Assembly (NCBI GenBank): GCA_019359715.1
Contig: JAHHGS010000117.1
Coordinates: 1-36,463, forward strand
Direction of reading: 5' to 3'
DNA length: 36,463 nucleotides
DNA from: Aphanocapsa sp. GSE-SYN-MK-11-07L
GTDB lineage: Bacteria; Cyanobacteriota; Cyanobacteriia; Thermosynechococcales; Thermosynechococcaceae
Shown: piece by piece, positions 14,604 to 19,978 of the stretch
How positions within the stretch are numbered: the first letter of the stretch is position 1
Layout of the letters: each line of letters starts with the position of its first letter
Translations under genes and position numbers: made by a program
The notes under the pieces: generated by a model
Told to the model about the DNA's origin: nothing
Database searches by the model: none
Seen by the model: the letters and a program-made list of their open reading frames with translations, nothing else

Positions 14604-17348
14604 TTACTGATCCGGGCGGACGACGCGAATAATGTTTTCAGTCATGCTCTCAAACGTGTCGTCGTGGCTGATCACAAACAATTGCTGAAAACTTTTCAGA
14701 TTGCCGAGCGCTTCGGCCAGTTGGCGACGGCGAAGCTGATCCATGTTGGTTGTTGGTTCATCAAAAAAGGCAACGTCAATATCGGAGAGGACTTTGAGCA
14801 GAGCCAGCCTGACCGCTAAGGCTGCACACATTTGTTCTCCCCCCGAAAGGCTAGGGAAGCTGCGCCAATGTCCGCCGGTTTGGACTTTAATTTCGTAGTC
14901 ATCTGTCCACTCTAGGGCGACATCTGGGCGATTCAATAGCTCTCGAAACAGCCGATCGCCCTCCTGAGAAATGTTGCTGAGATAAAACTGGGTAATCCGT
15001 GGGCCACTTTTATTGAAAATCATCCGCGCATCGCCAATAAACTGCTGGGCCTGTTGCCGGGTTGCTAGTTCCGCTTCAGCCTGCTTGCAATCTTGAGCGA
15101 TCGCTTCTAGCGCTAAAAGCTGCTGCTCCAAGGTCGCCAACTGAGCCAGCTTGGGCGGCAGGCCACCCGCCAGTTGATCGCGCTCGGTTTTGCGTTGATC
15201 AAGGATGGCAACCAAGCTGGGCAAGGCTTGCGGATCATAGTTTTGCTGTTCGACTTGCCAGCAATCTTTGAGGTCTGTTTGCTGCTGTTCAAACGCCGTC
15301 AGCTCTGCGATCGCCTGTTGGAATTGGGCCTGTAGCCCAGGGCACTGTTCGGCTTGCTGCTGCTGTTGCAGATAAATCTGATAGCCAGCCAGGTGAGCCT
15401 GCTGAATTTTCTTCTGACTGGTCATGCTGCTGGCAAGCTGCTGATAGGGAGTAAGCTGTTGCTCTAAAGCGGCGATCGCGGCTAATATTTCAGCTTGCTG
15501 AGCCTGAAGTTGCTCCGCTTTCGTTTGCAAATCAGACTGCTGAGCCATTTGCTCCTGTCTGAGGCGAATTTGACCCCTCGGATCATTGAGAGCCGAGAGT
15601 TGGGCCTGCAAATTTGCCAATTGCGCTTTCAGCTTAGGTTCAGGGGCAAGCTGAGCTTGCAGTTGGGCTAGTTCGGCTTGCCAGCGCTGGCAGTCTTGCT
15701 GCAAAGTCTGGGATTGAGACTGTTTGGCGCTCAGGCTGGCAAAATCTGCCCGCAGTTGGTAAGCAGCATTGAGTTGAGTCTGAAGTTGCTGCAAGCTTTC
15801 GGTCAGATCGGCCTGTGAAATCTGCTGGCTTAGATCAGCTAAAATTTGCTCCAGTCCTGCCATGACATTGCTGTGGATGGCTTGGCTGTCTTGAAAAGCA
15901 TCAATCACAGCGGCCAGGCTGGGCAAGTCATTTTTTAGCTTGAGCAGCGTCTTTAGGGCCGCCTGCACTTGCTGCTCCGCCCGATCGCCCTCGGTTTGAG
16001 CTTGGTTGACAATCTGCTCTAATTCAGCCGCAAACTGCTGGGCAGCTTCAATCCGGCTCAGTTGAAGCTGCCTGCGATCGCGCTGCTGTTCCCAGTCTGG
16101 AATCGCCTCCACCTGGGCCGCTAAACTCTGCAAGCGGTTGATTTCTGCTGATAGTGCTTCTAGGGCGCTCTGAGCAACTTGAAAGTGCTGCTGGGTGGCT
16201 TGGAGTTGGAGCTTAACCGGACTGAGCTGCTGGAGTTGCTCAGTCAAAACCAAAATTTGCTGCTCTAGAGCCTGCTGCTGCGCTTGGGCTGGCTGGAGGT
16301 GATGAATTTGAACCTTGGCCTGTTGGATCGTCGCCAACTGGGCTTGCAGTTGCGTAGCTTGCAGTTGCAGGTGATGGTGCTGCTGCTGCTGGCTTGTCAG
16401 TTGCTGTTGTAGGTGCTGCTGCTGCTGCTGTTGTTGATCAAGCGCTTGCAGGCGATCGCTGGCCTGCTGATAAGCCAGATAGCCAGATTGATGCTGCTGA
16501 CAGAGGGTGACGGCTTGCTCAGCCTGGCGCAAAGATTGCTGAATGATCACCTGCGTCGCTTGTTTGGCAGCAATTTGAGTTTGAATCTGCTGCAATTGCT
16601 GGCAGAGAGCCTGAGCAACCTGGGCTTGAGCCAGCAGTTGCGATCGCTGATGTTCGAGCTGCTCTAGATTTTGCTGGAGCTGCTGCAACTGAGCTTGATC
16701 GCGGGCAATCTCCTGCTGTTGGGTTGCTTGCAACTGTTGCAGAGCTGGCCAGTCAGCTAGCTGAAGTTCATACTGAGCGATCGCCTGCTCCAGTTGAGCG
16801 ACCTGCTGATCAGCGTAGGTCTTTAAACTGCTGGACTTGGTAAATGCCTGTCTGTATTCTTCGACTTTTAGAATCGGGTCAAAGATTTGCTTCCGCCCTT
16901 CTGCTTTCTTGAAAAAATCGCTCGTGAACGTCCCTTGCGGAATCCCGATCGTGTTGGCGAACAGCTTGGCTAAGTCTGTATCAATTGGCACGCCCAAGTG
17001 CTGCCTCAGCCAGAGCGCCACATCAACAACTTTGCGTAGACCCAGGCTAGCCTTTAGCTCCGGGTCATACACGTCGTAGCCTTTGCTCGTGCAGCGCCTG
17101 ACCTGATAGCAGCGTCCATCGTAGCTAGAAATCAGACTAACGCTGGCTTGGGCACTGCTGCACCCAGCTTTAATCAGATCAGCTTGCGGATAGTCGCTGT
17201 GGTTGAACAGCACCCAAGCGATCGCCTCTAAAATGCTAGTCTTACCCGCCCCATTTTCCCCGCAAATCGCATTGGTGCCGGGTTGGAAGACAAAATGGCG
17301 ATCGTCATGAGCTTTGAAGTTGGCAAGCGTAACGGTCAGAATTTGCAT
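14604..17348 (-). CDS. sbcC: SbcC/Rad50-like ATPase
   Basis: This SMC-like repair ATPase has Walker A GENGAGKTS near the N-terminus, the signature LSGGEQ and Walker B VAFFDEPTTNMD near the C-terminus, separated by ~600 residues of heptad coiled coil. It would partner SbcD/Mre11 to process DNA ends and hairpins; no sbcD is in the window. I see no CxxC zinc hook at the coil apex; an LNDPRG turn sits in the middle. The coil is extremely Gln-rich, with runs such as QQQQQQ around residue 310. Start chosen at MQILTVTL (17348); an in-frame ATG four codons upstream (17360) is possible. It is convergent with the copy 2 surface-protein gene. Confidence 0.9.
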   Translation of the reverse strand: MQILTVTLANFKAHDDRHFVFQPGTNAICGENGAGKTSILEAIAWVLFNHSDYPQADLIKAGCSSAQASVSLISSYDGRCYQVRRCTSKGYDVYDPELKASLGLRKVVDVALWLRQHLGVPIDTDLAKLFANTIGIPQGTFTSDFFKKAEGRKQIFDPILKVEEYRQAFTKSSSLKTYADQQVAQLEQAIAQYELQLADWPALQQLQATQQQEIARDQAQLQQLQQNLEQLEHQRSQLLAQAQVAQALCQQLQQIQTQIAAKQATQVIIQQSLRQAEQAVTLCQQHQSGYLAYQQASDRLQALDQQQQQQQHLQQQLTSQQQQHHHLQLQATQLQAQLATIQQAKVQIHHLQPAQAQQQALEQQILVLTEQLQQLSPVKLQLQATQQHFQVAQSALEALSAEINRLQSLAAQVEAIPDWEQQRDRRQLQLSRIEAAQQFAAELEQIVNQAQTEGDRAEQQVQAALKTLLKLKNDLPSLAAVIDAFQDSQAIHSNVMAGLEQILADLSQQISQADLTESLQQLQTQLNAAYQLRADFASLSAKQSQSQTLQQDCQRWQAELAQLQAQLAPEPKLKAQLANLQAQLSALNDPRGQIRLRQEQMAQQSDLQTKAEQLQAQQAEILAAIAALEQQLTPYQQLASSMTSQKKIQQAHLAGYQIYLQQQQQAEQCPGLQAQFQQAIAELTAFEQQQTDLKDCWQVEQQNYDPQALPSLVAILDQRKTERDQLAGGLPPKLAQLATLEQQLLALEAIAQDCKQAEAELATRQQAQQFIGDARMIFNKSGPRITQFYLSNISQEGDRLFRELLNRPDVALEWTDDYEIKVQTGGHWRSFPSLSGGEQMCAALAVRLALLKVLSDIDVAFFDEPTTNMDQLRRRQLAEALGNLKSFQQLFVISHDDTFESMTENIIRVVRPDQ

Positions 17349-17501
17349 CAACTGAGCCAAAAAATAGGGCTGAACTAGATTCCCCTTTAATTTTGCCAGA
17401 GGATCATCTGCGGTCTCTCTAGCAAGCCTAAATTCGGGAAAGGTTCAGTTTTATCGAGAGCAGTCCTAAGTGATTTGATTGATAACTTGAGGATTGCAAC
17501 A

Positions 17502-17760
17502 GGGAATAAGAAAAGTCCTACGGCATTAGCAGCATCCATACCCCTATTCGTGCTTTAGGTCTGCTAATTTGCGCCTTGCCCTTTCGGAACAAGTTGCCCT
17601 TTCGAGGACTTGGTATTGGCTACATGGGGGGATGTAGCCCTATTTATAATTTAGATTTTCCTATCTCTAGCCACCAGCGTAACCTTACGGAGATTATTGA
17701 AGGTAATACGTTCTTCTACCGAGGAACACCGTATTTCTACGGAAGTTTTTCCTGCCAAAC
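17502..17760 (+). repeat. structured dispersed element, copy A
   Basis: This non-coding unit opens with aataagaaaagtcct and includes attagcag/ctgctaat (stem 2), cttg/caag, two ttgccctttcg repeats and an aggact that pairs with the opening agtcct (stem 1). It is followed by ggctacat/atgtagcc (a stable hairpin with a T-rich tail), an accagcgtaa..tta hairpin, and cgta/tacg near 17735. A second copy lies about 520 bp downstream. Stems are preserved while loops differ, which suggests RNA or ssDNA structure is under selection. I do not recognise the family. The drawn strand is the one on which the T-rich tail follows the hairpin. Confidence 0.7.
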
Positions 17761-18022
17761 TGGAACTCTAGACCAATCTTGATTGACCTTGTAAAAAGAT
17801 TTTTCTGGAAACCTGTTGTGAATTCATCGTAGCTGTTCTTGAGGTGAGAACGGATTATTTGTTTAAAGGTTTTGTTCCACAACGTCTTTAAACAATAATT
17901 CTATTCATCTCAGCAGCAGATTCTACCAATCAGATCTCGCGACTGATTTAGAAACAGATTTAGAGTTCTACAGGACTTTGTGAAACCAAACGGATGATTG
18001 GATTTGTATATATTGAGTTTTC

Positions 18023-18285
18023 CTGAATAAGAAAAGTCCTTCGGCATTAGCAGCATCCATACCCCTGAAATGTGCGTTTTAGGTCTGCTAATTTGCGTCT
18101 TGCCCTTTCGGAACAAGTTGCCCTTTCGAGGACTTAGGTTAGGCTACATGGGGGTTTGTAGCCCTTATTTATAACTGTAAGCCTTCTCTGGCTTCAGCTA
18201 CCAGCGTAGTTTTACTGAAGTTAATCGAAAAACATCTAAATTTTCTAATCACCATCGTATTTCTACGGAAATCGCTGGCTTGACT
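18023..18285 (+). repeat. structured dispersed element, copy B
   Basis: This copy aligns with copy A over about 120 nearly identical bases (aataagaaaagtcct to the gtagccc hairpin) and more loosely after that. Stem 1 is agtcct/aggact, stem 2 attagcag/ctgctaat, and the third hairpin ggctaca/tgtagcc. In the next hairpin the sequence is cttcag..ctgaag where copy A has another pairing at that place. The unit ends near atttctacggaaat. The gap between copies (17761-18022) holds a perfect ttgtttaaag/ctttaaacaa hairpin and no gene. After copy B, gactgcc and ggtagtc can pair. No gene is visible from 17361 to 18401. Confidence 0.7.
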
Positions 18286-18401: not shown

Positions 18402-18902
18402 TTAGCGCAAGGCAATCTGCAAATAGATAAACAAAACAAAACCAATCAGCACGACTAGCTTCATGACACCAACAGTGTCTTCTAAGCTGTGGCAGCGCCG
18501 CTCTAATTTTTCTAGATTGGCACTGTAAGCATGGAGAGAATTAAGTAAATACTCATGCGAATCTTTTAAAGGTTGAATTCCGTCGCTCTCATGACTTTGC
18601 TCTCTATTCCTCTGTTGCGAATAATTGATCTGTTCGCGGAGTTGCTTGATAACGGCATCAAACTCCAAGTGTAAGTTGGTAATTTGCGACTGAAGCTGTT
18701 GAGCTGAAGTTTCAAGTTGAGATTCTAGCTGCAACGCCCGTTCTTCAAGCCCGGCGGACTGGGCAGGAAGGTCTTGATGCGCTTGAGACAGTTGCGTAAA
18801 TTGCGATCGCACCTGAGAAAGGTCATCTAACACCTGTGCAGACTGGGCAAATCTTTGTCTTAACTTGAACAATTCCTGTTCAATTTGGTCAATCTCAGCC
18901 AC
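18402..18902 (-). CDS. coiled-coil protein with C-terminal membrane anchor
   Basis: This 166-residue protein is heptad-rich, Gln/Leu/Glu-rich helix from residue ~4 to ~145. It is followed by one hydrophobic segment at the extreme C-terminus (VVLIGFVLFIYLQIAL) and a final Arg. This is a tail-anchored, cytoplasm-facing coiled coil. I do not recognise a family. It lies 77 bp downstream of the response-regulator gene on the same strand and may be co-transcribed with it, so it could be an effector or partner of that regulator, but nothing shows it directly. Confidence 0.72.
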   Translation of the reverse strand: MAEIDQIEQELFKLRQRFAQSAQVLDDLSQVRSQFTQLSQAHQDLPAQSAGLEERALQLESQLETSAQQLQSQITNLHLEFDAVIKQLREQINYSQQRNREQSHESDGIQPLKDSHEYLLNSLHAYSANLEKLERRCHSLEDTVGVMKLVVLIGFVLFIYLQIALR

Positions 18903-18979: not shown

Positions 18980-19978
18980 TCAAACAAGTTTAGAACTAAT
19001 CAGCAGAGGATGCAGCTTCGACTCCAAACCATCAGCCTGTTCACAAAGTTTATTTAGGGACTGAATTTGCCAGTAGGCTTGCAGGAGCCGATAAACCTCC
19101 GTAGATGGCTCAAAGACTTGTACTAAGGCATTGAAGAAAATTTTACAAGATTGTTCCTCTGGCCACTGCTGTAAGATTTCGCTCAGCCAAGTGAAAGCTT
19201 CTGAAGGGTTCACAGACCAAGCTGCGCGCGAGATATGCAGACGGACGAGGAGGTCAAAGCCCTGAGTTTGAGCGCTCTCAAAAGCCACTTTGAAGTACTT
19301 CATGGCTAGGGGCGCTTGTTGCTTGAATTTGTAAATGAGCTGTCCGGTTAGATAAAGCGCACAGACATGTTTGGGAGTTCGCTGTAACTGTTTTTCAAGC
19401 TGATTGATGACTTCAACTGCAACAAGCCGATCGTTGATAGATGCTAATAGGCCAAGAATTGCGTCGATCTCAAACTGAGCTGGATCGCCAATTAATTGCT
19501 GTACCTGCTTTCTGGTATCAGGCTGATCTGAGGGAATCGGCAGAGTATCGGCAGGATCGGCTGCGTTTTCCTGAGCTAAAAGTTTTTCAAGCAGTCCTGG
19601 CCCGAGTTGGCTATAGCCCCGATTCAGCGATCGAATCGAGTTAGCTAAATCTTCAGCGGAGGTGTCTTTAAGCAGATATCCCTTGGCACCAGCTTTGAGG
19701 GCTTTAGCAACTAAATCGTTTTGATCAGAGCCACTCAGCAGCAAAATTGAAACTTGGGGAAAGCTGTTGCTAATCAGTTTGGTCGCTTCAACGCCATCCA
19801 TCACAGGCATGTACTGATCAATCAGTAATACATCAGGTAAGAGGTCTTTCACTAATTTAATCGCATCCTGTCCATTGAAGCCTGTCCCCACAATCTTAAT
19901 GTCTGGCTCTGACTCTAGGAGGATACTCAGCCCCTGAGTAAATATTTTTTGATCATCAACAATTACAACTCGAATCAT
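18980..19978 (-). CDS. response regulator with helical output domain
   Basis: Residues 1-120 are a CheY-like receiver close to the NarL type: D8-D9 acidic pocket, phosphoacceptor D54 in LLIDQYMPVMDG, S82 and K104 in GYLLKDTS. The usual NarL HTH is absent. Instead, residues ~145-332 are helical, with a pattern (ALYLTGQLIYKF...AMKYFKVAFE) that suggests TPR-like repeats. The output is therefore probably protein binding and not DNA binding. No kinase is adjacent in the window. It starts at ATG 19978 and is divergent from the small-protein gene at 20352. Domain naming beyond the receiver is inference. Confidence 0.88.
   Translation of the reverse strand: MIRVVIVDDQKIFTQGLSILLESEPDIKIVGTGFNGQDAIKLVKDLLPDVLLIDQYMPVMDGVEATKLISNSFPQVSILLLSGSDQNDLVAKALKAGAKGYLLKDTSAEDLANSIRSLNRGYSQLGPGLLEKLLAQENAADPADTLPIPSDQPDTRKQVQQLIGDPAQFEIDAILGLLASINDRLVAVEVINQLEKQLQRTPKHVCALYLTGQLIYKFKQQAPLAMKYFKVAFESAQTQGFDLLVRLHISRAAWSVNPSEAFTWLSEILQQWPEEQSCKIFFNALVQVFEPSTEVYRLLQAYWQIQSLNKLCEQADGLESKLHPLLISSKLV

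Follow-up and report, generated by a model that had tools for sequence, protein, structure and literature searches.

The two copies at the locus

The window (the whole stretch of 36,463 nt analysed here) has no ORF of 80 aa or longer between 17360 and 18402. Within this region, at 17502-18285, two diverged copies of a repeat, A and B, are present, as the first-pass annotation of this DNA had described: a block of 42 nt (17504-17545 vs 18025-18066) is 98% identical, a block of 88 nt (17554-17641 vs 18078-18165) is 92% identical, and the copies are spaced by 521-524 nt. On the minus strand both copies matched the c-di-GMP-I aptamer family of Rfam (RF01051, GEMM-I) above its gathering score of 35, copy A with 46.5 bits (E 3.5e-06) and copy B with 46.3 bits (E 3.8e-06); the letters quoted in the annotation were those of the plus strand. 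The element had been thought to match no known RNA family; an unknown Rfam family is ruled out by the RF01051 matches in both copies, and a match to a known family, which the annotation itself had named as speaking against an undescribed element, was found as regards the aptamer part. What stood of the annotation's reading is a conserved structured RNA, with covarying pairs, two copies, a geneless location and matches in many genomes. Other Rfam families gave only sub-threshold matches in the stretch.

Read on the minus strand, each copy has the same order of elements: operator-like palindromes, a -10-like box, a hairpin with a loop of 5-6 C, the 5' strand of P1, the aptamer, the 3' strand of P1 and a U-rich stretch; the unit is ~140 nt long up to the end of P1. 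The features of the locus are as follows.

14604-17360, minus strand: Rad50/SbcC-like ATPase gene downstream of copy A (matches below the curated NCBIfam cut-offs)
17511-17643, minus strand: copy A, whole unit (C-loop hairpin, P1 and c-di-GMP-I aptamer); 116.1 bits with model R1, a score that is not independent, as copies A and B are both among the sequences from which R1 was built
17513-17519, minus strand: copy A, P1 3' strand AGGACUU, then U-rich stretch (sequence, fold)
17519-17608, minus strand: copy A, c-di-GMP-I aptamer (RF01051)
17605-17611, minus strand: copy A, P1 5' strand AAGUCCU (fold; P1 covaries in 77 copies)
17618-17640, minus strand: copy A, 5' hairpin with loop CCCCCC (sequence, fold, covariation in 77 copies)
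17648-17653, minus strand: copy A, -10-like box TAAATT (position -13 from the hairpin; weak alone)
17675-17692, minus strand: copy A, imperfect operator-like palindrome near -50 (repeat family D2; fixed-position palindrome in relatives)
17727-17744, no strand: second palindrome CCGTAGAAATACGG upstream of copy A (repeat family D4)
18032-18167, minus strand: copy B, whole unit (C-loop hairpin, P1 and c-di-GMP-I aptamer); 121.8 bits with model R1, likewise not independent
18034-18040, minus strand: copy B, P1 3' strand AGGACUU, then U-rich stretch (sequence, fold)
18040-18132, minus strand: copy B, c-di-GMP-I aptamer (RF01051)
18129-18135, minus strand: copy B, P1 5' strand AAGUCCU (fold)
18142-18164, minus strand: copy B, 5' hairpin with a loop containing CCCCC (sequence, fold, covariation in 77 copies)
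18202-18219, minus strand: copy B, imperfect operator-like palindrome near -50 (repeat families D2/D4; relatives)
18253-18270, no strand: second palindrome upstream of copy B (repeat family D4)

Between the two copies there is also an AT-rich inverted repeat with 28-nt arms (17848-17906).

Structure of the unit and its ligand pocket

Both window copies gave the expected fold, in which the C loop is open. Single-sequence folding was only mildly unusual (z of -1.1 and -2.2 for the two copies), and folding energy alone is weak evidence. Alignments of the copies carried more: with 49 copies aligned by MAFFT and not fitted to a model, 95.9% of cells were paired, 22 of 30 pairs had changed on both sides and none of 500 shuffles was as high on any pairing measure; with 77 copies aligned by fitting to the covariance model, 97.0% of cells of the whole structure were paired vs 28-51% when the structure was slid, and again none of 500 shuffles was as high. 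P1, of 7 bp, covaries over the 77 copies. The 5' arm of the P2 hairpin is lengthened by an insert of ~40 nt at five loci in two genomes (L095, L096, L097, L180 and L183; G001 and G004).

The window copies resemble RF01051 in having a GAAA tetraloop, CCUAA..UAUGG receptor-like segments and the ligand-pocket bases. Over the 77 copies the pocket bases, numbered after the Vc2 structure, were G20 in 77, G21 in 77, C46 in 77, A47 in 77 and the equivalent of C92 in 76. In this class of aptamers G at position 20 marks the c-di-GMP form and A the cGAMP form. With G rather than A at this position in all 77 copies, cGAMP (GEMM-Ib) specificity is ruled out, and the ligand form predicted from the pocket is c-di-GMP. 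A key pocket change between the GEMM-I ligand forms is mentioned in the accessible text of PMC9481103. The genome of the window has 20 GGDEF matches, so c-di-GMP can probably be made there.

A small ORF starting from the AUG of the tetraloop receptor was considered and rejected: the AUG is present in 65 of 77 copies, and the 64 frames with a stop have lengths from 2 to 79 codons. No conserved small ORF was found in the unit across the 77 copies.

Distribution in cyanobacteria

With RF01051 as the query, 19 of 58 genomes had matches, 18 belonging to the window's own family and one to family f21. Across the phylum the query matched 16 of 386 genomes, of which two are from the own family and 14 from outside the class of the window. 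A DNA pattern retrieved 43 stretches, three of them not cyanobacterial; the carriers of the other 40 were Acaryochloris, Thermosynechococcaceae/Thermosynechococcus, Acaryochloridaceae, Petrachloros mirabilis, Lyngbya confervoides BDU141951 and uncultured bins. The covariance search of cyanobacterial genomes that the first-pass annotation had proposed gave many matches, with covarying stems: model R1 matched 28 of 29 genomes of the window's family and, over the whole class, 59 of 388 genomes, which fall into three families (28 belong to the own family, 30 to f24, perhaps Microcystis and relatives, and a single one to f21). Model R2, built from 77 copies, again had matches in 59 of the 388 class genomes.

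The number of copies per genome varies. R1 located a third copy of the unit at G000:C87:3378-3515 in the window's own genome and 13 matches in genome G007; at one locus of the latter (L067) two copies lie 319 nt apart, one of which passes the terminator test. Each of the 31 genomes with a match outside the window's family has one match, and exactly one match was seen in 10 of 11 Thermosynechococcus-type genomes (genus g6).

Eight divergent loci were compared with RF01051. Five of them were above gathering (L163, L165, L167 and L170 of f24, and L181); up to E 0.5 no match was found in the other three, L162 (the third copy of the own genome), L175 (Thermosynechococcus-type) and L182 (divergent), so ligand binding is less sure there.

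Gene context

Considering the nearest downstream ORF (>=100 aa) of the first 49 copies, we saw that it was antisense in 27, sense in 18 and absent in four; for 27 further loci (ORFs of >=90 aa) the counts were 17, 8 and 2. Combined, among the 70 copies with a called downstream ORF the ORF was sense in 26 and antisense in 44. The control consisted of 22 canonical c-di-GMP-I loci elsewhere in the phylum, which have the same aptamer class; with RF01051, 20 of the 22 outscore the window copies and L043 and L044 score lower. In the control set the nearest ORF was sense in 14, antisense in two and absent in six; 11 of the 14 sense genes lie within ~65 nt. L044, which falls short of the Rfam cutoff, is possibly a spurious member of this set, and some of the genomes contribute more than one locus. 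Against the control fraction of 14/16 sense, the Fisher test gave p of 0.0012 for the first copies (18/45) and 0.0005 for all (26/70), the tested loci being partly non-independent (two window copies, two L067 copies, syntenic groups). Among the control loci (L031-L052) are c-di-GMP-I riboswitches directly before genes of apparent lipoproteins or secreted proteins, and three of the loci (L037, L039, L048) have long aptamer inserts.

Several syntenic groups were observed, with neighbours named from one representative per group by NCBIfam: thrC upstream (seven loci), a convergent exopolysaccharide sugar transferase (six), a divergent trpS (six) and a SigF-like sigma factor upstream (four). Judged by ORF start, all eight examined loci of genus g34 face moaA convergently. 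The neighbours are of unrelated kinds (thrC, trpS, the exopolysaccharide sugar transferase, sigF, moaA, mutL, fba), with no shared function apparent; the third copy of the own genome faces mutL convergently.

At the window itself, copy A is followed at ~150-158 nt by the Rad50/SbcC-like gene on the same strand, which is a possible cis target of this copy. Two same-strand proteins precede copy B, one with weak coiled-coil-type matches (18402-18902, minus) and one with a response-regulator receiver domain (18980-19978, minus). Over the family, the placement typical of a cis-riboswitch, with a same-strand gene directly downstream, is not the rule, copy A alone in the window having such a gene; the c-di-GMP-I aptamer of the family mostly belongs to an RNA that lacks an associated ORF.

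Promoter-like, operator-like and terminator signals

The first-pass annotation had taken further stems (cttcag/ctgaag, cgta..tacg) for parts of the RNA or ssDNA fold. All of these stems are located before the point at which the RNA is predicted to start. With the cgta..tacg palindromes near 17669-17696, 17727-17744, 18196-18223 and 18247-18274, they are more likely to be DNA operators than RNA structure. A palindrome of the CCGTA-N4-TACGG type is present at -52, -53 or -57 in 19 of 75 copies vs 0-3 per 20-nt bin elsewhere; with their imperfect versions the window copies are uncounted under this strict pattern.

Sequence conservation climbs sharply starting at the base before the hairpin. A -10-like hexamer was found at -20 to -9 in 28 of 77 copies, as compared with 0-6 of 77 in 20 other search windows; the -10 box of copies A and B is weak. 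On the other side of the unit, a strong intrinsic terminator within 150 nt was found in 22 of 76 copies vs 11 of 380 shuffles and 10 of 345 random places, and these terminators begin 20-70 nt past the end of the aptamer match. No strong terminator was seen within 150 nt in the other 54 copies, A and B included; in the window copies UUUUCUUAUUC after P1 might serve as terminator.

We also observed a motif near ACAACUGAAUA some 10-25 nt 3' of P1 (e.g. L071, L163, L184). A loose pattern of this kind, drawn from these very sequences, occurs in 23 of 76 copies vs 53 of 5000 random places; one could speculate that the motif is a second contact site.

The C-loop hairpin and the search for pairing targets

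The 'ggctaca' hairpin, which the annotation had seen persisting in both copies, is indeed kept at 17618-17640 and 18142-18164, and its conservation across relatives is well above chance; it is predicted to be the 5' end of the RNA. In the 77 copies all five tested pairs had changes on both sides and 97.4% of cells were paired; for example, GGGCUA/UAGCCC is replaced by AGACCCA/UGGGUCU in some f24 copies. The run of C in the loop is 5-8 nt long in 76 of 77 copies and 4 nt long in one, with a mean unpaired probability of 0.93 over the 77 copies.

Maintenance of the C loop by pairing with P1 or with an internal G run was rejected as an explanation: in the window copies P1 offers no G run longer than GG, and a G4 run elsewhere in the RNA is absent in 44 of 77 copies, so internal pairing is not a general explanation for the C run. 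In the 22 control c-di-GMP-I loci the 50 nt preceding the aptamer never contained a C5 run. A conserved unpaired loop that is absent from the controls is, to judge by these sequences, probably kept for something outside the RNA. Unpaired C-rich loops classically pair with G-rich ribosome-binding sites.

Targets were sought as extended complements of the loop, for two loop types and with ORFs called by length only. In 13 genomes of genus g34 the 12-mer had 17 sites, 12 of them in the RNA gene itself; no two of the five others share a place, four being inside called ORFs and the fifth, seen in a single genome, 49 nt before an ORF. In 11 Thermosynechococcus-type genomes the 11-mer had 61 sites (the RNA gene's own sites included) vs four for the reversed control. 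There was no conserved start-proximal site among the 40 of these 61 that were examined, 36 of which are inside called ORFs. Three sites outside called ORFs (L234, L250 and L253, from two Thermosynechococcus-type genomes) share sequence around the 11-mer; by eye, this shared sequence resembles a remnant of transposase coding sequence.

Interpretation

The aptamer of the element is a known one; its setting is unusual, conserved and mostly free-standing. Membership in the aptamer family, conservation of the ligand bases and of the hairpin, enrichment of promoter and terminator signals and placement independent of genes were computed here. That the element is a free-standing RNA gene with a c-di-GMP-I aptamer we consider highly probable. 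For the explanation as a whole, a c-di-GMP-gated small RNA gene acting in trans via its C loop, we have a reasonable preference; the pairing in trans by the C loop, taken as a claim of its own, falls slightly on the doubtful side of an even chance. More tentative is the widest form of the proposal, namely that at least three cyanobacterial families possess dedicated RNA genes as c-di-GMP receptors, in which the aptamer lost its link to cis control and was joined to a C-rich seed hairpin, giving a family of ligand-gated trans-acting small RNAs with their own transcriptional control.

Under the preferred explanation each copy would be a small RNA gene transcribed from the minus strand. A putative promoter would lie directly upstream of the C-loop hairpin, with an activator-like palindrome around -50 that is clear in 19 of 75 copies. 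The RNA would begin at or near the hairpin with its exposed loop of 5-8 C, to be followed by the aptamer closed by the 7-bp P1 and then by the U-rich stretch, with a strong intrinsic terminator predicted in 22 of 76 copies. Binding of c-di-GMP to the aptamer would presumably stabilise P1, which may alter the amount or the shape of the RNA (e.g. by termination at P1 and the U tract, or by protection of the 3' end). The C-rich loop could then pair with G-rich sites of other transcripts and so relay the c-di-GMP signal in trans.

One could think instead of a sponge or reservoir, an abundant RNA that buffers c-di-GMP and in which the C hairpin merely stabilises the 5' end. The free-standing aptamer has the same design in merRNA, as far as the accessible text of PMC3627812 describes it, and the 13 matches in G007 would suit a sponge; however, a conserved unpaired C loop would be superfluous in it, yet at least five C are kept in 76 of 77 copies, and a single match is all that each of the 31 genomes outside the window's family has. 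This reading appears unlikely, though with an appreciable chance of being right.

The c-di-GMP-gated small RNA could also use its conserved hairpin as a protein-binding rather than a base-pairing site, which we regard as unlikely. The loop is conserved as C, the stem sequence too is kept within groups, and no conserved extended complementary target was found for the two loop types; on the other hand, we have no candidate protein, and it is with G-rich ribosome-binding sites that unpaired C-rich loops classically pair.

It is rather improbable that A and B are an ordinary pair of cis-acting c-di-GMP-I riboswitches controlling the Rad50/SbcC-like gene of this genome. Such a pair would fit the common strand of both copies and the gene, with copy A ending ~150 nt before the start codon, and tandem c-di-GMP-I riboswitches are common (347 doublets in the accessible text of PMC9481103). 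Against it are the antisense orientation of the nearest downstream ORF in 44 of 70 copies of the family and relatives and the unrelated kinds of these neighbours, the convergence of the third same-genome copy with mutL, and the promoter-like and operator-like region that each copy has of its own.

A dispersed repeat or mobile-element end with a fossil aptamer would account for genomes having several copies at sites that are not homologous and for the inverted pair (14 nt, 86%, 1.6 kb apart) that brackets both copies, but we give it very little chance: covariation is strong, the ligand bases and the promoter placement are conserved, one arm of the inverted pair is inside the response-regulator ORF and the pair is taken as chance, and a mobile-element or phage origin was rejected as there was no match in plasmid records and no viral contig with the exact pattern, an absence that is only partial since stricter versions of this pattern caught 18-35 of 49 known copies.

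Comparison with known systems

In cyanobacteria c-di-GMP reportedly controls behaviour such as phototaxis, and the c-di-GMP receptors known there are, to our knowledge, proteins. If the proposal is true, a conserved RNA receptor that is a gene of its own adds an RNA layer to the cyanobacterial c-di-GMP network, and the unit is a rare case of a natural riboswitch aptamer built into a free-standing RNA. The family also suggests that intergenic riboswitch matches with no sense gene behind them need not be errors and may instead represent RNA genes.

In our literature search, outside which subscription papers mostly fell, no report of a free-standing c-di-GMP-I RNA in cyanobacteria was recognised. 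Reviews on cyanobacterial second messengers and research papers, in their accessible text, bring up riboswitches in connection with c-di-AMP, as tools or in a general way, and not this RNA (PMC4284465, PMC10117731, PMC7063779, PMC8682488); in a cyanobacterial noncoding RNA screen of 2009, none of the clusters in the table of selected ones is evidently this RNA (PMC2662882). What we found no earlier description of is the free-standing unit (promoter, C-loop hairpin, aptamer, terminator) together with its distribution, which the first-pass annotation had likewise not noticed.

In comparison with ordinary RF01051 riboswitches, the family is mostly not a leader of sense genes, has the additional conserved C-loop hairpin at its 5' side and shows signs of a promoter of its own. 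The trans-acting riboswitches of Listeria and others, described as rare and as sometimes also regulating the adjacent gene, are aptamer-bearing RNAs acting on distant mRNAs or proteins, as is proposed here for the cyanobacterial unit; unlike the cyanobacterial unit, none of those mentioned in the accessible text of PMC7266159 carries a c-di-GMP aptamer. The nearest precedent is merRNA of Bdellovibrio bacteriovorus, a free-standing noncoding RNA with a c-di-GMP riboswitch that was proposed to be a reservoir; it is 445 nt long and very highly expressed, and beyond the Bdellovibrio lineage its authors saw no sign that it is conserved (accessible text of PMC3627812). Likened by description, the two have in common that they are free-standing, contain a c-di-GMP riboswitch and have no conserved downstream ORF; in contrast to merRNA, the cyanobacterial unit is ~140 nt long up to the end of P1, occurs in three families and carries a conserved C-loop hairpin.
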